From: Actinoallomurus bryophytorum
Lineage (GTDB): Bacteria; Actinomycetota; Actinomycetes; Streptosporangiales; Streptosporangiaceae
NCBI RefSeq assembly: GCF_006716425.1
Contig: NZ_VFOZ01000001.1
Span: forward strand, 5,766,001-5,830,000
DNA: 64,000 nucleotides
Reading direction: 5' to 3'
This document shows positions 4,168-46,251 of the stretch, one piece after another. The notes beneath the pieces were generated by a model. The model worked only from the letters and a program-made list of their open reading frames with translations. It searched no databases and was not told the origin of the DNA. The translations under genes and the position numbers were made by a program. The number at the start of each line of letters is the position of its first letter. Positions within the stretch are counted from its first letter, which is position 1.

Positions 4168-4413
4168 GCCTTTTCCGTGCGCGGAGCAGCGGTGATCACG
4201 TCATGATCGCGAGTTGCGCGTCTGCCTGCTGACGTAGAGAAGCTCCTGGTGGATGGGTTGATCACCACAATCGAACCCGTCACGACCAATAGATATAGAG
4301 CGGAGACTTGTTATTCATTAAGTAATGGGCATAGCGGAACGGCAGTGAACGGGGAGTCAGCACGGACATTGGCCTGGCCTTCAGCGGGCAGGTCGGCGGA
4401 TCGGACTTTCTCC

Positions 4414-4986
4414 TCAGAGCTCCTCGAGCTCAGGCTTCCAATCGGCTTTGATCAATGCGTACTCGACCACGCCGTGCTCGGAGCCTTCGACGGCGTCCAG
4501 CCCTTCGCGGTGGAAGGTGCGTACGAGGGTCAGGCCGGCCTTCTCCAGCACGCGCCGCGAGGCGGTGTTGGCCGTCATCGTCTCGGCGACCACGCGTTCC
4601 ACGCCCAGGTCGGTGAAACCTTTGTGGATCAGTGCACGCGACCCCTCGGTCGCGTAGCCCCTGCCCCACGCCGATCTGCGCAACCGATAGCCGAGTTCGA
4701 TGTCGCCGTCACGTGGCCCGTTCTTGTACGGCCGGAAGTGGAACCAGCCTAGGAACCGCCCGGTGGACTTCTCCTCCGCCGCCCAGAAGCCGAAGTCCGG
4801 GCCTTGCCCGTACTGGCGGAAGAGCGCCGGCAGGATCCGGCTACGGACCTCCTCGCGCGGAGTCGGCCTGCCGCCGCTGAGGAAGCGCATGACCTCAGGA
4901 TCACCGTCGAGCTCGACCAGGTTGTCCTCGTCGGCCTCGGTGAAGCGGCGAAGGGTCAGGCGGTCGGTCTCCAGGAAGATCAACAT
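4414..4986 (-). CDS. GNAT N-acetyltransferase (RimJ/RimL type)
   Basis: A 190-residue acetyl-CoA-dependent acetyltransferase. It starts LETDRLTLRRFTEADED, the classic RimJ/RimL opening. It contains WFHFRPYKN and ELGYRLRRSAWGRGYATEGSRAL, the acetyl-CoA pyrophosphate-binding loop (Arg-x-x-Gly-x-Gly/Ala). It ends with VAETMTANTASRRVLEKAGL, the conserved Asn-x-x-Ser segment. The acceptor could be an N-terminal amine, a small amine or an antibiotic. ATG at 4986 is where family homology begins. It stands alone, 113 bp from the hydrolase gene on the same strand. Confidence 0.88.
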   Translation of the reverse strand: MLIFLETDRLTLRRFTEADEDNLVELDGDPEVMRFLSGGRPTPREEVRSRILPALFRQYGQGPDFGFWAAEEKSTGRFLGWFHFRPYKNGPRDGDIELGYRLRRSAWGRGYATEGSRALIHKGFTDLGVERVVAETMTANTASRRVLEKAGLTLVRTFHREGLDAVEGSEHGVVEYALIKADWKPELEEL

Positions 4987-5099
4987 TTCGCGATTATCGC
5001 GCCTGCGAGAGACGGGATGAAGCCGCGGATCCGGAGAGGCGGCGAGCCTCCGTCCGGACGGCACAGGTTATGAGGTCCCTACGCGGGGACGGGACCGTT

Positions 5100-6086
5100 T
5101 CAGGCGGGCAGTGAGGCGAGCCAGTCCGTCAGGATTCGGCCGACCTCCTCGTGGCGTTCCTGCTGGATCCAGTGGCCGCAGCCGTCGAGGATGTGTGAGG
5201 AGACCAAGCCCGGCAGGGTTGCCGGGTATGCCTTGATGGCGTCGGCCATCCAGACGGTGGAGGCGTCCAGCGCACCGCCGGCGAACACGGACGGCTGGGT
5301 GATGGGGGAGCCGTCGAAGTCGGCCAGGTCCTCCCAGTCCCGGTCCATGTTCCGGTAGCGGGCCAGCGCCCCGCTCATGCCGGTCCGTTCGAACTCTGCC
5401 GCGTAGACGTCCAGGTCGTCCTCGGTGAGCCAGCCGGGTAGCCGGCCGGTGGGGAAGCGGTCGCGCAGTGTTCCGCCCTCGGAGGTGAAGTGCGGGTCAG
5501 GGGCACCGGCGGGGGGCATGGTGTCGGCGGACAGGGCGGCGTAGAAGCCGGCTAGCCAGCCGCGGACGTCCGGTTCGATCTCCGCCTCGGCACGGCCCGG
5601 CTCCTGGAAGTAGCTCACGTAGAACTCCTCCGCCCCGCCCATCCGCGCGAAGACCTCGCTGGGCCGTGGTCCGCCGCGCGGGGCGTACGGCACGCTCAGC
5701 AGCCCCACCGCGCGGAAGACATCTGGCCTGACCAGGGCGGAGTTGGCGGCGATGGTCGCACCCCAGTCATGGCCCACGATCACGGCCGTCCGCTCGCCAA
5801 GGGCATGCACCACGGCGACGTTGTCCTCGACCAGGTCCAGCATCCGGTACGCGGCTACGTCTTCGGGTCTGGAGGAACGGCCGTAGCCACGAACGTCCAC
5901 GGCGACGGCCCGGTGGCCGGCCGCGGCCAGTACCGGCATCTGATGGCGCCAGGAGTACCAGGACTCGGGGAATCCGTGCACGAGCAGCACCAGCGGTCCC
6001 GACCCCTGCTCGACCAGGTGGATGCGGCCGGCGGGAGAGGGGACCAGCCGGTGGGTGATCTCCGTGGCCGGAGCGAAAGGTGACAT
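5100..6086 (-). CDS. Alpha/beta hydrolase, epoxide hydrolase type
   Basis: A 328-residue soluble hydrolase. The oxyanion-hole motif HGFPESW lies near residue 43. The nucleophile Asp is in VGHDWGA, a helical cap domain follows, and the catalytic His is in GCGHWIQQE near the C-terminus. HGxP with an Asp nucleophile is the epoxide-hydrolase signature rather than the Ser-esterase one. The reaction is water addition to an epoxide through an alkyl-enzyme ester. GGAGG sits 6 nt upstream of the chosen ATG. A haloalkane or fluoroacetate dehalogenase is a less likely alternative in the same fold. Confidence 0.87.
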   Translation of the reverse strand: MSPFAPATEITHRLVPSPAGRIHLVEQGSGPLVLLVHGFPESWYSWRHQMPVLAAAGHRAVAVDVRGYGRSSRPEDVAAYRMLDLVEDNVAVVHALGERTAVIVGHDWGATIAANSALVRPDVFRAVGLLSVPYAPRGGPRPSEVFARMGGAEEFYVSYFQEPGRAEAEIEPDVRGWLAGFYAALSADTMPPAGAPDPHFTSEGGTLRDRFPTGRLPGWLTEDDLDVYAAEFERTGMSGALARYRNMDRDWEDLADFDGSPITQPSVFAGGALDASTVWMADAIKAYPATLPGLVSSHILDGCGHWIQQERHEEVGRILTDWLASLPA

Positions 6087-6308
6087 CGATCCTCCAGAGC
6101 TTAGAAGCCATGCGCCGGGTGCGGGGTCACGGGCCAGGTCGAGGCGTCGTCCAGCGGCTCTACCTGGATCATGCGGCAGGCGGCGCCGCGACCGTGAATC
6201 GCTTTGCCGTTCCGGCAAAGGCCGCACGACCACCCAAAAAGACTCGAAGTCCGGTCAGAGCACGCTCTGGTAACGTCGCGAGGCCGACGGGGAGAGGACG
6301 GACCAGCG

Positions 6309-6896
6309 ATGCCATCGACGCCTGACGGACCCGACCCAGATCTGGTCAGCGATGAAGAACTGCAAAGGTTGACGGTCGGTGAGGTCAGACCGCACAACGC
6401 ACCGATCGCTCTTCACGAGTACGACCCCGAATGGCCTCTGCTCTTCGATCGCGAGGCGGACCGCATTCGCGCGGTGCTCGGGGAAAAGGCGCTGCGGATC
6501 GAGCACGTCGGCTCGACCTCCGTACCCGGGCTGGTCGCCAAGCCCATCATCGACGTGCTGCTCGTCGTGCCGGACTCCGCCGACGAGCCTTCGTACGTGC
6601 CCGCGATGGAGGCGGCCGGGTACGTCCTGCGTATCCGGGAGCCGGATTGGTTCGACCATCGCCTCTTCAAGGGCCCGGACACCAGCATCAACCTGCACGT
6701 GTTCGGCGTCGGCGCCTCGGAGATCGACCGGATGCTGGTCTTCCGCGACCGGCTGCGTTCCAGCGACGCCGACCGGGAACTCTACGCGCGTACCAAGCGT
6801 GAGCTCTCTCAGCGCACGTGGCGGCACGTGCAGCACTACGCCGACGCCAAGACCCAGGTGGTCCAGGAGATCACGCGGCGCGGCGAGCGCGGGTAG
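6309..6896 (+). CDS. GrpB/UPF0157 family protein (nucleotidyltransferase fold)
   Basis: A 195-residue protein of the GrpB family, related to minimal nucleotidyltransferases. Diagnostic motifs are YDPEWPLLFDREADRI, the core IEHVGSTSVPGLVAKPIID carrying the Gly-Ser and Asp positions of the NTase fold, and the C-terminal YARTKRELSQR. Some family members act as CoA or dephospho-CoA-linked enzymes, but the role here is unknown. ATG at 6309 is preceded by GGGGAGAGG. It is divergent from the epoxide hydrolase. Confidence 0.85.
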   Translation: MPSTPDGPDPDLVSDEELQRLTVGEVRPHNAPIALHEYDPEWPLLFDREADRIRAVLGEKALRIEHVGSTSVPGLVAKPIIDVLLVVPDSADEPSYVPAMEAAGYVLRIREPDWFDHRLFKGPDTSINLHVFGVGASEIDRMLVFRDRLRSSDADRELYARTKRELSQRTWRHVQHYADAKTQVVQEITRRGERG

Positions 6897-6926
6897 CGGA
6901 GAGCCCGCGCGCAGGGCCGAGCACCC

Positions 6927-7166
6927 CTACGGGCACACCCGATGGCGGGGCACCCAGACCCGGTGGCCCCTCCGGCGCTCCCATCTCCAGTGACCTGGGA
7001 CGATGTGGCACCTCGCCCGGCCCTCCACGGCTCCGGTCCCACGCTCTGCGGCATGCCGGCCGCCGGTCGAAACGGCCGCCGTGGCCGTACCCATCGCCGG
7101 TACGGTTCCGAGGGTGAATACCAGGGCGGATAGAACGCCCGTGACGCGCATTCTCATTAAATTCAC
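6927..7166 (-). CDS. Small secreted protein (hypothetical)
   Basis: A 79-residue protein with a good signal peptide: basic MRMRV start, a hydrophobic stretch VLSALVFTLGTVPAM, and an Ala-x-Ala-like cut near ATAAVS. The mature part is about 50 residues, strongly basic, with two cysteines and paired aromatic motifs (VPGHWRWERRRGHRVWVP). GTG at 7166 follows GGAGG by 5 nt, and an internal ATG is also possible. No family is recognised. The signal peptide and ribosome site argue that it is real. Confidence 0.55.
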   Translation of the reverse strand: MNLMRMRVTGVLSALVFTLGTVPAMGTATAAVSTGGRHAAERGTGAVEGRARCHIVPGHWRWERRRGHRVWVPRHRVCP

Positions 7167-7295
7167 CGCCTCCGGACCCCAATGGCCCTGAAGAGATTAA
7201 AAAGCTCATTACCAATGGCGGGTTCGGCGTTGAATCGCGGCCCGCGGGCCGTCTTCACCAGTCTTTCCGCGTCCGATCACGTCAAAACCGCGACA

Positions 7296-41029: not shown

Positions 41030-41674
41030 GTGCCCCAGGGCGCAGGGAGCGGTCCGCGCGGCCGCTATCACCACGGCGAGCTGCGCGCCGCGCTGATCGA
41101 GGCAAGCTTCGACCTGCTGGCGGAGTCGGGACTGGCGGCCTTCTCGGTCGCGCGGGTGGCACGCAGGCTCGGGGTGAGCACGGCGGCGCCCTACCGGCAC
41201 TTTCCCGACCGCGACCACCTGGTCGCCGCCGTCGCCGCGCAGGCGGCCGTGGAGCTGCGGGAGCGGTTCGTGGAGGCGGCGGAGGAGGCGGGGGAGGACC
41301 CCGCCGAACGCTTCGCGGCGACCGCCGGGGCCTACGTACGCTTCGCGGGTACGCGCGGCGCGGGGTTCGACGTCATCTTCGCCGCCGAACTGGACCGGTT
41401 GCACGACGACGCTCTGGCCGGCGCGGGACGCCCGCTGATGGACCTGCTGCTGGACCTCGCGCAGCAGGCCCTCGGCCAGGGGCCGGAGGCATCCCTGACC
41501 TTGGTGGAACACCACGTGGTGGCCGCGCACGGCTACGTGGCCCTCCACCGCGAGGGATTCTTCGCCCGCCGCTACGAGGGCGTCGCCGCCCTCGCGGACC
41601 GCGCCGTGGCCGGGAGCCGCACTCTCCTACGCGGCATGCGCGAACCCCCGCCGCGGCCTCCCGGCAGCCCCTGA
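41030..41674 (+). CDS. TetR-family repressor
   Basis: 214 residues. The N-terminal HTH includes YHHGELRAALIEASFDLLAE and VARRLGVSTAAPYRHFPDRDHLVAAV, followed by the helical ligand domain (TetR_C WHG-type). It probably represses the divergent SDR gene and itself through the paired repeats upstream. GTG start at 41030. It is convergent with the last gene of the mau-like operon, 12 bp apart. Confidence 0.92.
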   Translation: MPQGAGSGPRGRYHHGELRAALIEASFDLLAESGLAAFSVARVARRLGVSTAAPYRHFPDRDHLVAAVAAQAAVELRERFVEAAEEAGEDPAERFAATAGAYVRFAGTRGAGFDVIFAAELDRLHDDALAGAGRPLMDLLLDLAQQALGQGPEASLTLVEHHVVAAHGYVALHREGFFARRYEGVAALADRAVAGSRTLLRGMREPPPRPPGSP

Positions 41675-41686
41675 GCCGGCAGCCCA

Positions 41687-42247
41687 TCAGCCCAGGAGCA
41701 GCAGGACGGCGAGGGCGGTCAGCACCGTGATGCCGATCGCGTTCGTCAGCAGCGGCATCCGGGTCACGCGGCGGTCGTCCCACTCGTCGTGCCGGCTGGC
41801 GTAGCGGACCGCCGCCGTCACGGCCCGGCCCGCTCCGAAGCCGGTACCCGTCAGGATCGTCGTGACCGGCCCCTGGTGCGCGAGCAGCAGCCCGAGCGCG
41901 ACCACGTACGGAGCGCCGGCCGAGACGAACGTGCGTACCCCGGTTCCGAGCTCGAACCCGAACTGCAGAGCCCCGCGCCGTATCCGGCGTTGGAGTACCT
42001 CCTGCGGGATCTGCCGTGCGTTCTGCGGCAACGGGACGCGCACCCAGCCGGCCTCGCGCGCCACGCCGAGAACCGCCACGGCGAGGATCGCGCCGGTGCG
42101 TACGGCGCCCGGCAGCGGGGCGGCCAGCCCGGACAGCAGCCACAGGACGCCCGCGGTGAGGGTGCCTCCGAGGAGGAGGCCGAGGGTGAAGACGGCGAGG
42201 ACCTGGCCCTGCCGTACGGGAGCCCGCCAACCTGGCGAGAACAGCAC
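41687..42247 (-). CDS. Polytopic membrane protein of the mau-like operon
   Basis: A 186-residue membrane protein with about five helices (for example VLAVFTLGLLLGGTLTAGVLWLL near residue 20 and ITVLTALAVLLLLG at the end). A basic cytoplasmic loop lies in the middle (NARQIPQEVLQRRIRRGAL). No family recognised. It is the last gene of a six-gene operon, 18 nt after the microprotein gene. GTG at 42247 lacks a clear ribosome site, so coupling to upstream translation is likely. Export or redox transfer for the MauA-like protein is an inference from position only. Confidence 0.75.
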   Translation of the reverse strand: MLFSPGWRAPVRQGQVLAVFTLGLLLGGTLTAGVLWLLSGLAAPLPGAVRTGAILAVAVLGVAREAGWVRVPLPQNARQIPQEVLQRRIRRGALQFGFELGTGVRTFVSAGAPYVVALGLLLAHQGPVTTILTGTGFGAGRAVTAAVRYASRHDEWDDRRVTRMPLLTNAIGITVLTALAVLLLLG

Positions 42248-42265
42248 GAAGTCGCTGTTACGCGT

Positions 42266-42442
42266 TCAAACCGAGCCGGACAGGGAGTAGCCCGCCAGCG
42301 CGCCGACCGAGGCCCAGCACAGCACCGCCTGGTCCGCGGCCGACGCCGCGACGGCCAGCAGGGCCAGCGCGGCGAACGGCAGCAGCGGCTCGGTCAGGCC
42401 CCGGCGCAGGCGTCCCGCCGGCCGGGTCTCAACTGCAGGCAT
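42266..42442 (-). CDS. 58-residue membrane microprotein in the mau-like operon
   Basis: Starts MPAVETRPAGRLRRGLTEPL, a basic, likely cytosolic head. Two hydrophobic segments follow (LLPFAALALLAVAAS and AVLCWASVGALAGYS) separated by an Asp-Gln turn. The ATG lies inside the end of the MauA-like gene (14-nt overlap) and the stop is 18 nt before the next start, so the frame exactly fills the gap. Amphipathic composition with a positively charged head and two helices is not expected by chance. It carries one cysteine. No homologue recognised. Confidence 0.65.
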   Translation of the reverse strand: MPAVETRPAGRLRRGLTEPLLPFAALALLAVAASAADQAVLCWASVGALAGYSLSGSV

Positions 42443-42998
42443 ACTGCCACCGGCAGATCGACTTGTACCAGGTGCCGGCCGTGCTCTTCGTCCAGCCGTC
42501 GTGGCAGCGCCAGGTCACCGAGTTCGCGCAGTTCCCGCAGGGGTTCGTGTAGTGCCAGATCCAGCCGTCGTACTTGCTGCCGTAGCACTCGTTCGGCCGG
42601 AGCTTGTACTTGCCGGGGTCCGAGACGCCGGACTTGTGGTAGCCCTTGTACGTCCCGCTCGTACGGCAGGCGGTGGACACGACGGTGCTGGGCCCGCAGC
42701 CGGGCGAGCAGTTGTGGTCCGACGCGTACGACGGGCACGTGGTGTAGATGTCGTAGTAGCCCGGGGTCAGACCCTTCGTGTAGGGGCCCGGGACCCAGCC
42801 CGTGGCCAGGGCCTTGCGCGCCGGGGCGAAGATCCCGACGGCGGCCAGCCCGGCCGTGGTGCCGGCGGCGATCGCCCCGCCGAGCATGGACCGGCGGCCG
42901 ACGCCTTCGGCGGTCGCCGCGGGCGCGTGGCGGCGTACGCGCCCCGCACCTTCCGGGCGGGGGCCGCGCAGCGGGGGAATGCTGTCGAGTTCGAGCAT
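42429..42998 (-). CDS. Tat-exported cysteine-rich protein resembling methylamine dehydrogenase light chain (MauA-like)
   Basis: 189 residues. A long leader carries twin arginines at 35-36 (GRRSMLGG) and a hydrophobic stretch to about residue 65, like the atypical Tat leaders of MauA. The mature part has ten cysteines (88, 97, 101, 111, 138, 154, 157, 165, 182, 188) and seven tryptophans. It starts GWVPGPY, comparable to the MADH light-chain opening KWVPQD. A hand alignment pairs C138-Y139 with the CY after the first TTQ Trp and W169 with the second, but the first Trp position seems to be Arg134. Quinone formation is therefore doubtful. ATG at 42998 has GAGGAG upstream; an ATG at 43043 overlaps the previous stop. 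Confidence 0.75.
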   Translation of the reverse strand: MLELDSIPPLRGPRPEGAGRVRRHAPAATAEGVGRRSMLGGAIAAGTTAGLAAVGIFAPARKALATGWVPGPYTKGLTPGYYDIYTTCPSYASDHNCSPGCGPSTVVSTACRTSGTYKGYHKSGVSDPGKYKLRPNECYGSKYDGWIWHYTNPCGNCANSVTWRCHDGWTKSTAGTWYKSICRWQYACS

Positions 42999-43039
42999 GG
43001 CCACTCCTCGTTCCGGCGGCCGGTCGGCCGCATCAGGTC

Positions 43040-43558
43040 TCATCGCGTGCTGCGGTCCAGCTCCGCGTCGTCGTTCAGTCGTCCACCGGCGTCGGTGACC
43101 AGCGTGTGAAGGGCGCGTACCGACCCGACCGGCTCCGCCGTGCGCACCCGTCCGTCCGCCCCGATGACCACCCCGTACGGCGTGGCCGGGACCTGGTACG
43201 CCGTGAAGAGCTCCGACTGGCGTGCCAGGATCGTCAGGTTCGGCGGCGGGTCCGCCTCGATCGCCTCCTCGGCGAAGATCGCCCTGGTCGCCGGGGCGCC
43301 GTCGAGGCCGAGCGCCTCCTGGAAGATGTCGCGGCAGGCCGGGCAGTCCTCGCTGAGGAACAGCAGGAGAGTCGGCTGCCCGGGCTCGGCACGTACGAGG
43401 TCCGGCGCGGGCGCGGGCGTGCCGGCCCGCAGGCCCAGGTCGCGGGTGCGCGGTCCCTGGGTGAGGTGGTGCACCTGGCGCACCAGCCCGGCCACGACCA
43501 GCGCGAGCAGCACGAGGGCCGCCCAGGTCAGCAGCAGTGCGGTGGTATCGAAGCTCAT
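43040..43558 (-). CDS. MauD-like membrane-tethered thioredoxin-fold protein
   Basis: 172 residues. An N-terminal membrane helix (ALLLTWAALVLLALVVAGLV) is followed by a thioredoxin-like domain outside the cell. The redox motif Cys-Pro-Ala-Cys is in FLSEDCPACRDIF, and the cis-Pro loop is in QVPATPYGVVIG. In mau operons MauD supports disulfide formation in the light chain. Its position between MauE and the ten-cysteine MauA-like gene supports the same job here. Its ATG overlaps the MauE stop by one base (TGATG). Confidence 0.88.
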   Translation of the reverse strand: MSFDTTALLLTWAALVLLALVVAGLVRQVHHLTQGPRTRDLGLRAGTPAPAPDLVRAEPGQPTLLLFLSEDCPACRDIFQEALGLDGAPATRAIFAEEAIEADPPPNLTILARQSELFTAYQVPATPYGVVIGADGRVRTAEPVGSVRALHTLVTDAGGRLNDDAELDRSTR

Positions 43559-44091
43559 CAGGCGGCCTGCCTTTCGGGATCGAACATGGCCTGCGGCAGC
43601 AGGGAGAGCAGCACCGCGAACACGACGGAGGCCAGGACGGCGAGCGCGGTATGCGTGCCGTGCGCGGGCGCCGCTCCCGTGGCCGCCACGAGGGAGGCGA
43701 GGGCGAGCACGGCGGCGCGTCCGGCCACCCAGCCGCTCATCGGCGTGTCCCCGCCCGGCCCGGTCGCGCAGCCGCACGGCACGCTCGGCCGGGTGCGCAG
43801 GACGTACAGGCCATAGCCCGCGTAGACGGCGAACAGGACCGCGGCGCCGGCCGCGGCGAGTGCGAGTGTGTGCGGGCGCCCGGCCGGTACGGCGTAGCAC
43901 GTGGCCGCCCCGAGTGTCCCTTCGAGCGCGATGACGGCGGCCGCGACCGGCCACCGCAGCGGGCTCGGCACGACGCGCTGGGCGGCCAGCGCGGCCGGCA
44001 ACGCGCGCGGGGCACGCAGGTGCCCGGCGAACGCCAGCAGGAGGACGAGTGCGACGGTGCCGCCGCAGACGCCCGTGAGCATCTCCGCCAT
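43558..44091 (-). CDS. MauE-family membrane protein
   Basis: A 177-residue integral membrane protein with about four helices, of the MauE/DoxX-like redox-associated family. It starts MAEMLTGVCGGTVALVLLLAFAGHLRAP and has a Cys-Gly-Cys motif (VPCGCATG) in a loop near residue 110, suited to dithiol exchange with the adjacent MauD-like protein. MauE is needed for light-chain maturation in methylotrophs. Coupled on both sides by TGATG overlaps. Confidence 0.88.
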   Translation of the reverse strand: MAEMLTGVCGGTVALVLLLAFAGHLRAPRALPAALAAQRVVPSPLRWPVAAAVIALEGTLGAATCYAVPAGRPHTLALAAAGAAVLFAVYAGYGLYVLRTRPSVPCGCATGPGGDTPMSGWVAGRAAVLALASLVAATGAAPAHGTHTALAVLASVVFAVLLSLLPQAMFDPERQAA

Positions 44092-44786
44092 CAGGCGACG
44101 GTCTCGACCTTGAGCGCGCCGATCCGCGCCGGGACCTTGGCCGTCTCGCCGTCGTGCGGCAGCACGGTGACCACCGCGGACGGCGTGGCGAGCAGGAAGT
44201 AGGTGCTGTCGTCATCGAGTGTGTCGCGGAACAGCTCACCGTGGGGCAGCCGGGCGCCGCGCCACGAGGGGAGCCGCCGCGCGGTCGTCTTGTTCAGGGC
44301 GGTCATCTCCAGCAGGCCGAGATTCGGGACCTCCTTGGCCAGCTGGGAGGGCTCGGCGATGCCGGCGCGTTTGGGGTTGCGCGAGGCGACGGTGAGCCCG
44401 TCGTCGTGCTCGGTCACGCCGAGGAGCTGGAAGACGTGCACGGCGTCGGCGGGTTTGGCGTTGTACATCGGGATGAACATCGAGAACCGGCGGCCCTGCC
44501 AGACGACGGCGAGCAGCTGGTCCTCCAGCCCGGACCGCTTGTCGTAGTCGGTGACCCGCGCCGTCCGCAGCCGCCCGCCCTGGATCGAGAACTCATCGTC
44601 GAACCCGCGGATGCCCAGGTCGCCGGTCCAGCCCGTGGCGGCGCCGTGCCCGCCCGAGGTCAGCTCGTAGAGCCGGCTGTCGACCGCGTAGCGGGCCACG
44701 GAGGTGAACGGCTGGGTGAGGTCGAGATCCCCGGAGAGGTGGAAGCGGTACCCGTCGAGGGCTCGGTGAACGACGCTCTTGGCCAT
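44091..44786 (-). CDS. Unknown 231-residue cytosolic protein, first gene of the mau-like operon
   Basis: No signal peptide or membrane helix. It starts MAKSVVHRALDGYRFHLSGD and is rich in beta-type segments (for example LAVVWQGRRFSMFIPMYNAK and FLLATPSAVVTVLPHDG), with no cysteines apparent. GGGAGG lies 7 nt before the ATG. The stop overlaps the MauE start (TGATG). The gene occupies the place of mauB in classical mauB-E-D-A order, but it is much shorter than a heavy chain and shows no propeller repeats I can see. Function not assignable. Confidence 0.75.
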   Translation of the reverse strand: MAKSVVHRALDGYRFHLSGDLDLTQPFTSVARYAVDSRLYELTSGGHGAATGWTGDLGIRGFDDEFSIQGGRLRTARVTDYDKRSGLEDQLLAVVWQGRRFSMFIPMYNAKPADAVHVFQLLGVTEHDDGLTVASRNPKRAGIAEPSQLAKEVPNLGLLEMTALNKTTARRLPSWRGARLPHGELFRDTLDDDSTYFLLATPSAVVTVLPHDGETAKVPARIGALKVETVA

Positions 44787-45021: not shown

Positions 45022-46251
45022 GTGACAGAACGGGATCAGCGAGTACCCCCCGTGTTGGCCGCGGCGGCGGCATGGTGCTGGCGGCTGATCGTGATCGGCA
45101 TCGTGCTCTACGCGGTCGCCCAGATCATCGGCATGCTTCGCCTCGTCGTCCTGCCGTGCGCCGTCGCCCTCCTGCTCTGCGCCCTGCTGCATCCGATCAC
45201 CGAGCGGCTGCGCCGCTGGATGCCGTCGCTGGCCGCGACCTGGCTGACGATGCTCCTGGCGCTGGGGGTGCTCGGTGGCGTCGGCACCTTCGTCGGCATC
45301 CAGGCCAACGACCAGGTGCCCGACCTCGTGGACCGGATCCAGCACACCGTCAAACAGTTGCAGAACTGGCTGGTCACCGGGCCGCTCCACCTGAAGAACT
45401 CCCAGTTGCAGTCGGCCATCGACGAGCTGCTCAAGCAACTGCAGGCACAGCGCGGCAAGGTGGTCGGCACGGTCTTCACCGGAGCCACGGTGGCGGGTGA
45501 GGTGATCGCGTCCATCGTCTTCCTGTTCTTCGTGACGTTCTTCCTGCTCAAGGACGGGCGCGGCATCTGGAACTGGCTCATCAGCGGCTTCGGGCGCTAC
45601 CGCGAGCGCTTCGACCGGGCCGGCCGTGCCTCGTGGGAGACCCTCTCCCAGTACGTCCACGGCACCGTGATCGTCGCGGCCATCCACTCGGTCGTCATCG
45701 CGGTCGTGCTGATCATCATGGGCGTGCCGCTGGTCGCCCCGCTCGCCGTCATCGTGTTCTTCGGCAGCTTCATCCCCATCGTCGGAATCCTGGTGGCGGG
45801 AGCGGTGGCCGTCATCGTCGTCTTCAGCGTCAAGGGGGGCATCGCCGCCCTGGTCTTCCTCGGCATCCTGGTGCTCGAACAGCAGCTGGAGGGGCACGTC
45901 CTGCAGCCCCTCGTCGTCGGCCGGTGGGTGCGGTTCCACCCGCTCGCGATCATTCTCGCGATCACGGTCGGCGGCGTGGTCGCGGGCATTCCGGGCGCCG
46001 CCGTCGCCGTGCCGACGGCCGCGGTCATCTACCGCGCGATACCGGCACTGCGCGGCTCTCCCGAGCCGACGCCCGCGGAGGCGCCGGCCAAACCGCCCTC
46101 ACTCGCCGTGGGCCGTACGTCCGAGTCGTCCGAGTCGTCCGATACGGAGGACGAGCCGTCCGTGCCGGAGGAGGAGCCGCCGGCGCCCGGGGAGGAGCAC
46201 GGGACGCCGCGCTCCGGCGAGCCGGGACCGGACGAACCGCGAGAGTCATGA
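45022..46251 (+). CDS. AI-2E family transporter (PerM/TqsA type)
   Basis: A 409-residue polytopic protein. An N-terminal helix pair precedes a long amphipathic extracytoplasmic segment (DQVPDLVDRIQHTVKQLQNWL). The conserved core has FFVTFFLLKDGR and GVPLVAPLAVIVFFGSFIPIVG, then LEQQLEGHVLQPLVVG near the end. The tail is acidic and disordered (Glu/Pro/Ser). Members export small molecules or ions, and the substrate is not predictable. GTG at 45022 has GGAGGAA upstream. Confidence 0.92.
   Translation: MTERDQRVPPVLAAAAAWCWRLIVIGIVLYAVAQIIGMLRLVVLPCAVALLLCALLHPITERLRRWMPSLAATWLTMLLALGVLGGVGTFVGIQANDQVPDLVDRIQHTVKQLQNWLVTGPLHLKNSQLQSAIDELLKQLQAQRGKVVGTVFTGATVAGEVIASIVFLFFVTFFLLKDGRGIWNWLISGFGRYRERFDRAGRASWETLSQYVHGTVIVAAIHSVVIAVVLIIMGVPLVAPLAVIVFFGSFIPIVGILVAGAVAVIVVFSVKGGIAALVFLGILVLEQQLEGHVLQPLVVGRWVRFHPLAIILAITVGGVVAGIPGAAVAVPTAAVIYRAIPALRGSPEPTPAEAPAKPPSLAVGRTSESSESSDTEDEPSVPEEEPPAPGEEHGTPRSGEPGPDEPRES

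Follow-up and report, generated by a model that had tools for sequence, protein, structure and literature searches.

Predicted MauF-type selenoprotein gene with an in-frame TGA in a MauE/MauD operon of Actinoallomurus bryophytorum

The minus-strand operon at 41687..44786 of the window (the whole stretch of 64,000 nucleotides of Actinoallomurus bryophytorum DNA analysed here) raises the question of what a MauE- and MauD-type pair does beside a cysteine-rich exported protein, and what the last two reading frames of the operon encode. The first-pass annotation had described six genes. The reading frames are present as it had described, in the stated order, with the TGATG overlaps, a 40-nt gap and a ten-cysteine protein that has a Tat leader, and the operon has five genes, since only one TGA interrupts the common frame of its last two ORFs. 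The first gene, X (44091..44786), encodes an unknown 231-aa protein for which Pfam, NCBIfam and PHROG returned no family at a meaningful E-value. It is followed by a membrane protein of 177 aa with a CGC motif (43558..44091), whose assignment to the MauE family is borne out by PF07291 (63.3 bits, cut-off 27), and by a membrane-anchored thioredoxin of 172 aa with Cys-Pro-Ala-Cys (43040..43558, an ORF from the ATG at 43558), whose proposed likeness to MauD holds as a relationship but a distant one (TIGR02661 25 bits, cut-off 188.6; PF13098 24.7 bits, cut-off 27). The fourth gene (42429..42998) encodes A, an exported cysteine-rich protein of 189 aa with a Tat leader and 10 Cys, which is the presumed folding client, and the last is a predicted MauF-type selenoprotein gene (41687..42442; one frame and a profile match), which yields 251 aa with TGA read as selenocysteine (Sec).

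A tblastn survey of 48 related loci recovered X in 44, MauE in 44, the MauD-like gene in 46 and both parts of the last gene (the "microprotein" and the membrane protein) in 48 each; MauE fell below the threshold in loci L008 and L014, and a contig end lies close to the operon in four loci (L004, L028, L044 and L047). The order X-E-D-A-microprotein-membrane protein is hence conserved well beyond the source strain, which argues that the arrangement is more than chance. The same gene order including X, and the same TGA, were also found in a distantly related genome of this phylum, G308, whose locus L073 was the sole match when the X profile was compared with 69 distant loci.

The 58-residue "microprotein" (42266-42442, minus strand) and the "polytopic membrane protein" (41687-42247, minus strand), previously taken for separate genes, lie in the same frame at a distance of whole codons (21 nt from stop to start) and most likely make up a single MauF-type gene whose internal stop is read as selenocysteine. 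The predicted Sec codon (TGA, 42266..42268, minus strand, residue 59) is the single internal TGA in the window's gene and is kept in 48/48 related loci, in which the residues right after it (TRNS) are invariant. Synonymous conservation is raised at codons 60-74, a result that bears on the hairpin described below; locus L024 was excluded from this test and from two family alignments because its frame ends early. Were the TGA a true stop, the two halves would be translationally coupled genes of a split MauF, re-started at the GTG 18 nt downstream. A same-frame GTG does come after the stop, and a start codon follows the TGA in related clades too (such as ATG in GLSM), but the stop is never TAA or TAG in the 48 loci, conserved residues lie between TGA and GTG, and the GTG itself is replaced by GCG in two of the 48 (L037 and L046). 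Orthologues with TGC at the exact site and an uninterrupted frame, together with the co-occurrence of TGA and tRNA-Sec, also count against two coupled genes, which we consider highly improbable.

Across the phylum, MauF-type genes turned up in 75 of the 396 genomes searched, representing 61 of 237 genera. Six of the 75 genomes (G071, G115, G126, G189, G384 and G397) were left out, and 70 loci were examined, 69 of which matched at 35 bits or more (G105 scored below this) and 67 of which cover the TGA/Cys column, absent in G267 (masked as N) and G287 (contig end). The codon at this column was TGA in 58 copies, TGC in eight and TGT in one, with nothing else among the 67, a tally to be read with the search profiles in mind, as these read U as C and so favour hits that have either TGA or a Cys codon there. 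A tRNA-Sec was detected in 51/57 genomes with TGA as against 1/8 genomes with Cys only (Fisher p 1.8e-5, uncorrected for kinship). The six TGA genomes in which it was not seen (G017, G149, G157, G200, G245 and G256) are mostly fragmented, and part of the tRNA-Sec search used stricter filters.

The source genome holds SelA (409.8 bits, cut-off 267.9), SelB (above the cut-off), SelD (384.6 bits, cut-off 125) and two tRNA-Sec genes with the anticodon UCA. The formate dehydrogenase adjoining tRNA-Sec in this genome carries Cys, formate dehydrogenase being usually a typical bacterial selenoprotein. Ordinary read-through of the UGA, or its decoding as a common amino acid (Trp or Cys, for instance), would involve no selenium, and the constrained bases around the TGA would fit any recoding signal, this one included. 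Yet the full Sec set of the source genome, the lack of tRNA-Sec in 7/8 Cys-only genomes and the interchange of Sec and Cys, which the part of PMC12013277 covered here gives as the usual selenoprotein signature, all speak for selenium, and decoding of the codon by any of these other routes appears very unlikely indeed. Taken over the sequences compared, the gene almost certainly encodes Sec at its TGA.

The UGA would be decoded with the aid of a SECIS hairpin just 3' of it, and a SECIS-like hairpin was found there in the minimum-free-energy fold (42223..42239, minus strand). Counted from the U of UGA, its stem comprises nt 30-36 paired with nt 40-46 and its loop is GGU (nt 37-39); in the 29-47 register, 7-8 of 8 pairs are formed in 49/49 core sequences. 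In the phylum set, a hairpin in this fixed register was present in 33/58 TGA copies and in 0/9 Cys copies. The loop starts with G in 34/34 in-register sequences, and the stem pairs swap G-C for C-G. The fixed-register hairpin is missing in 25/58 TGA copies; in 13 of these 25 a hairpin of 7-8 bp with a GGTC loop sits at about nt 25-26 instead, and the remaining ones vary, L194 and L213 having only 5 bp. A folding-energy test between TGA and Cys genes gave no separation (p 0.20), although within the genes folding is more favourable in the hairpin region than in a segment farther 3' (p 0.002).

The 251-residue product of read-through is related to MauF, one of the membrane proteins encoded in the methylamine (mau) operon. 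A profile-profile comparison with MauF, in which the U column was masked, gave an E-value of 1.2e-6 and a score of 49.8, as against scores of at most 24.2 in 30 column shuffles. In the phylum copies, motifs such as RSTWSP(TGA)GES and GAWSP(TGC)GFA align opposite STWSPCGYS of Paracoccus MauF, and Cys occupies the TGA column in 5/5 proteobacterial MauF. The motif in the window's protein is a degenerate one (SV-U-T as against SP-C-G), and a direct alignment of its protein to proteobacterial MauF with the U column masked did not place U on Cys, so that this placement derives from the intermediate sequences in the family alignment. An AlphaFold model of the read-through MauF reached a pLDDT of 58.8, and a fold search with it came back empty at an E-value limit of 0.001. 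The product would be a MauF-type membrane protein with only one conserved redox residue, and this residue, which in MauF is the SPCG-motif Cys, is predicted to be selenocysteine. As the microprotein and the membrane protein are halves of a MauF-type gene, the "new partners" that the first-pass annotation had assigned to the operon correspond for the most part to the mau set's third membrane protein, in a putative selenocysteine form. The annotation's idea of a retained folding half of the mau system is supported as regards a MauE/MauD-type module devoted to an exported Cys-rich protein that cannot be recognised as a methylamine dehydrogenase (MADH) light chain.

The exported protein, with 10 Cys in the window and 12 Cys in 41/48 relatives, shows no detectable kinship with methylamine dehydrogenase light chains. 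It had been thought to resemble that chain, a likeness that proved not to be significant: the 189-residue protein had no match to the light-chain profile PF02975 at E up to 1, nor to any PDB or NCBIfam entry, and when the whole A and MauA families were compared with hhalign, the Tat leader alone aligned. With the leader removed, A as a light chain was rejected (hhalign E 0.24, no significant similarity to MauA), and so were two other client types as MauA relatives (E 0.01 and 0.18); the best leader-free score of a client against MauA was 23.6, the shuffled maximum being 23.9. The observation in the first-pass annotation, by hand alignment, that the first tryptophan of the TTQ cofactor is not preserved would require mature A to align with MauA, and the two mature proteins do not align. 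An earlier comparison with leaders kept had given strong E-values and was set aside because one client set also included the A protein of G308. The source genome gave no match to PF02975 or to the heavy-chain profile PF06433, control genomes being likewise silent for both, and PF02975 produced one weak sub-threshold match in 296 genomes of the phylum. The AlphaFold model of A was unusable (mean pLDDT 36.2). These comparisons bear on the reading of the locus as a reduced mau operon, in which A, as a MADH light chain in degenerate form, would have been retained by MauE/MauD alongside unrelated new partners. The E-D-A order matching that of Paracoccus, the homology of MauE and MauD and the alignable Tat leaders would all suit it, but mature A and the other client types lack significant similarity to MauA and the membrane partner is MauF itself, which leaves a reduced operon improbable.

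A MauD-like neighbor of the MauF-type gene was found in 59/69 phylum loci, by an iterated profile that ended up including E-D fusions, and MauE in 49/69. MauF(U) and MauE are fused as a single ORF in seven loci and MauE and MauD in three, fusions that link these parts. A Tat cysteine-rich gene was not found beside the module in many phylum loci, in a search of one strand with a loose pattern that gives false hits, and other MauE genes of the source genome also adjoin ABC-transporter, signal-peptidase or ATP-grasp genes. We propose that MauE, the MauD-like thioredoxin and Sec-MauF form a membrane redox relay that would make or correct disulfide bonds in the Tat-exported protein A encoded next to them. 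In our view, the advantage of Sec would be that it speeds up thiol-disulfide exchange and resists over-oxidation. A Sec-containing MauF in a redox relay for A is, with high probability, the best overall explanation of the locus; that MauD, MauE and MauF(U) work as one disulfide relay on A seems reasonably likely. Sec insertion, the action of the relay on A and the oxidation or isomerisation of its disulfides are what we infer from these data, and electrons could flow in either direction. In a reductant role, Sec-MauF would resemble DsbD/CcdA in passing electrons from cytosolic thioredoxin to MauD for disulfide isomerisation or repair and not for oxidation. The SPC motif is reminiscent of the one in CcdA/DsbD and one member, L101, comes near DsbD_2 (20.9 bits, cut-off 24.9) and DsbD_TM below threshold, but 5/6 of the scanned members have no DsbD match, and DsbD has two membrane cysteines where the MauF type has a single redox residue; we regard the reductant role as a tentative possibility, somewhat less likely than not. 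The MauF-type selenoprotein would probably supply the selenium-dependent component of a disulfide machine built from MauD, MauE and MauF.

The MauF-type gene with TGA apparently constitutes a selenoprotein family absent from the literature covered here. None of the 119 families in the covered part of the 2026 selenoprotein inventory (PMC13188914, Table 1) is of MauF or methylamine type, and a comparison of seven family members with NCBIfam release 20 brought up nothing relevant. If the prediction is true, it adds a selenoprotein family that occurs commonly in a phylum ranking among the largest of bacteria, and the TGA inside one MauF-type gene accounts for the split, unnamed gene pair of the annotation; it would also link selenium to the oxidative folding of exported proteins and open the poorly understood role of MauF to testing. 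That some Sec-using bacteria have no known selenoprotein is noted as unexplained in the covered parts of PMC5029168 and PMC5330540, and a Sec-form MauF, if true, would offer an answer for them. The broadest version of the proposal, for and against which we see the balance as even, is that MauD-MauE-SecMauF is a dedicated selenium-dependent disulfide machine widespread in Actinomycetota, that it folds exported proteins with 10 to 26 cysteines and that it is a main reason for the upkeep of the costly Sec machinery in many of these soil bacteria.

Among known systems, TsoB, the rhodanese/DsbD fusion-like selenoprotein and other families in the covered part of Table 1 of PMC13188914 are also predicted Sec thiol-redox proteins. 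The DsbD/CcdA family is approached by a single member, L101, below the curated cut-offs of DsbD_2/DsbD_TM, and the MauF type has a single Cys/Sec position. MauE/MauD genes occur outside methylamine metabolism in candidate RiPP clusters of Streptomyces, which differ in having peptide clients and, in the covered part of PMC7794033, come without mention of MauF or Sec. The methylamine operons differ in their client, and the window's gene is accompanied by neither a MADH heavy chain nor amicyanin nor MauG. The closest counterpart is MauF of Paracoccus and Methylobacterium, a homologous membrane protein that is likewise encoded with MauE and MauD, and that has an invariant Cys where the window's gene has its TGA, the predicted selenocysteine.

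The open reading frames (ORFs) placed by the first-pass annotation on the minus strand at 41687–44786, encoding a protein X, MauE, a MauD-like protein, the Tat-leader cysteine-rich protein A, a 58-residue product and a membrane protein, were present in the window sequence at those coordinates. The MauE assignment was borne out by PF07291 (63.3 bits, cut-off 27), and the MauD claim held only in the sense of a remote relationship (TIGR02661, 25 bits, cut-off 188.6). X, A and the 58-residue and membrane ORFs matched no Pfam or NCBIfam family at a meaningful E-value, and all four were negative in a PHROGs search. Using A as the query, we recovered 48 related loci, all of which, apart from two MAGs (L015, L023), bear the name Actinomadura, Actinoallomurus or Spirillospora in their titles. 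The proposed gene order was preserved in these loci, with X and MauE each detected by tblastn in 44/48, the MauD-like gene in 46/48 and both terminal ORFs in 48/48. A PerM-like membrane protein gene (45022–46251, plus strand), divergent from the operon, has been retained next to it in six loci of the Actinoallomurus type (L001–L003, L005–L007), and a TetR-like gene (41030–41674, plus strand) that converges on the opposite end of the operon has not been retained at that position.

The count of six genes had to be revised, as the last two ORFs form one gene in a single shared frame with one TGA between them, the stop of the 58-residue ORF lying 21 nt ahead of the membrane ORF start. This separating codon is TGA in 48/48 loci, the read-through frame contains exactly one internal stop, and the TRNS directly after it is invariant across 48 aligned sequences (the window and 47 loci). 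The putative GTG start of the second ORF is GCG in 2/48 loci (L037, L046), so a separate second gene would there be without that start. The same TGA was found in a distant genome of the phylum (G308), which has X, MauE, MauD and an A protein in the same order and whose MauF-type gene is broken by a contig end, the remainder lying at the end of another contig. At L024 (about 9154) the frame stops early, at 204 residues compared with about 246, through either misassembly or damage to the gene.

Read through at this predicted selenocysteine (Sec, U) codon, the protein is, by sequence, a relative of MauF. Profile–profile comparison with Paracoccus and Methylobacterium MauF gave an E-value of 8.6e-7 with U read as C, and masking the U column gave 1.2e-6 with a score of 49.8, where 30 column shuffles reached at most 24.2. 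With U read as C, the alignment begins with U opposite the Cys that is invariant in the MauF motif STWSPCGYSS. Masking U leaves a local alignment restricted to the later part and a global one that misplaces the U column. We placed U on the motif Cys because three intermediate sequences settle the column, namely L098 (RSTWSP[TGA]GES), L101 (RSHWSP[TGA]GES) and L103 (GAWSP[TGC]GFA).

Across the phylum, the window family profile alone matched 11/346 genomes, and the widened family profile matched 75/396 genomes and 61/237 genera. We examined 70 survey loci, 69 of them at no less than 35 bits and 67 spanning the codon column, where 58 copies had TGA, eight TGC, one TGT (L214, a weak match) and none any other codon, in a survey whose profile treats U as C and is biased toward TGA or Cys matches. 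Per genome, 57 had TGA and eight Cys only, the window genome being counted additionally, and one genome (G100) combined a TGA copy with a TGC copy. Nine of the 75 genomes fell outside the codon count: G071, G115, G126, G189, G384, G397, G105 (below 35 bits), G267 (column masked as N) and G287 (cut by a contig end). The profile match of two copies, L177 and L207, holds a second TGA 36 and 25 codons upstream of the Sec codon, respectively, which is probably the stop ahead of the true start or, possibly, a further Sec.

All seven tested genomes with the six-ORF operon carried tRNA-Sec, the window genome having two copies, and the anticodon was UCA in 8/8 tRNA-Sec loci (ARAGORN). The window genome also encodes SelA (409.8 bits, cut-off 267.9), SelB and SelD (384.6 bits, cut-off 125, no internal stop). 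In the survey, tRNA-Sec was found in 51/57 TGA genomes versus 1/8 Cys-only genomes (Fisher p 1.8e-5, kinship ignored). It was not found in six TGA genomes (G017, G149, G157, G200, G245, G256), of which G157, the one examined for SelB, scored over the cut-off; a Cys-form genome that is 99% complete (G014) lacked tRNA-Sec as well as any SelB match above the cut-off. In the window genome, a formate dehydrogenase ORF (L218:5572-8417, C1) situated about 2 kb away from one of the tRNA-Sec genes has Cys at the usual Sec place, in a CHAP motif, the site at which Table 1 of PMC13188914 gives UHxP for Sec forms; a second ORF after it matches part (177–384) of the same profile, as if partially duplicated.

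Downstream of the codon we observed a SECIS-like hairpin in which nt 29–36, numbered from the U of UGA, pair with nt 40–47 across a three-base loop. Among the 49 core sequences, 44 formed 7/8 pairs and five 8/8; in the phylum, at least 6/8 pairs occurred in 33/58 TGA copies versus 0/9 Cys copies, and five proteobacterial MauF genes formed two to four. The loop starts with G in 34/34 in-register sequences, the window included, and among these 34 the bases interchange at pair 33–43 (GC 11, CG 22, TG 1) and pair 34–42 (GC 18, CG 11, AT 2, TG 2, unpaired 1). Thirteen of the 25 out-of-register TGA copies have the hairpin shifted to about nt 25–26 with the loop GGTC, and the others vary. Codons 60–74 use the commonest synonymous codon at 0.897 versus 0.702 elsewhere (p 7.9e-4). 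Counting against this signal, folding energy relative to synonymous shuffles gave no separation of TGA from Cys genes (p 0.20); within TGA genes, folding energy separated the hairpin region from a stretch further down (p 0.002).

No MauF-like family is listed in the whole of Table 1 of the 2026 prokaryotic selenoprotein inventory (PMC13188914), and the new selenoprotein family of PMC5330540 is a thioredoxin. Seven members of the MauF-type family had no relevant NCBIfam match, and searches of the open-access literature listed no paper describing a MauF selenoprotein, a report elsewhere being possible.

Same-strand neighbours in 69 loci included a MauD-like gene in 59 and MauE in 49. The ORF after the UGA runs on to include a MauE domain in seven loci (E 1e-29 to 6e-45); in three loci of the Cys form, a single ORF comprises a MauE region and, after it, a thioredoxin-like part. 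By inspection, Tat-leader proteins are often encoded directly upstream of MauF, with 9 to 12 cysteines in 21 loci (filter-based, L213 being of another kind) and 14 or more in eight. At L060 (own genome, C1:7266500-7277000, about 4395–7167), inspection showed MauE and a thioredoxin-like gene adjoining an ATP-grasp-like gene, an ABC-transporter-like gene and two small ORFs, of which one contains cysteine; the group looks like a RiPP cluster using MauE. Also by inspection, MauE genes at L057 and L059 (own genome, C2) lie near S26-type signal peptidase-like ORFs, L057 with an ABC-transporter-like ORF as well; these are perhaps further MauE-dependent export clusters.

Protein A has 12 cysteines in 41/48 core loci and ten in the window and seven Actinoallomurus-type loci (L001–L007), where the same two are missing together, as if one disulfide had been lost. 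The suggested resemblance of A to the light chain (MauA) of methylamine dehydrogenase (MADH) did not hold up; mature A does not align with MauA and is thus not filed as a MADH light chain, and the other client types gave no alignment with MauA beyond chance. We infer that MauE, MauD and Sec-MauF would act as a relay making or correcting disulfides of the Tat-leader clients. A kinship of Sec-MauF with DsbD is hinted at, not established. In the literature view cited in PMC7794033, MauE and MauD serve the disulfides of a MADH subunit. A may still be folded in the way that the MADH light chain is.
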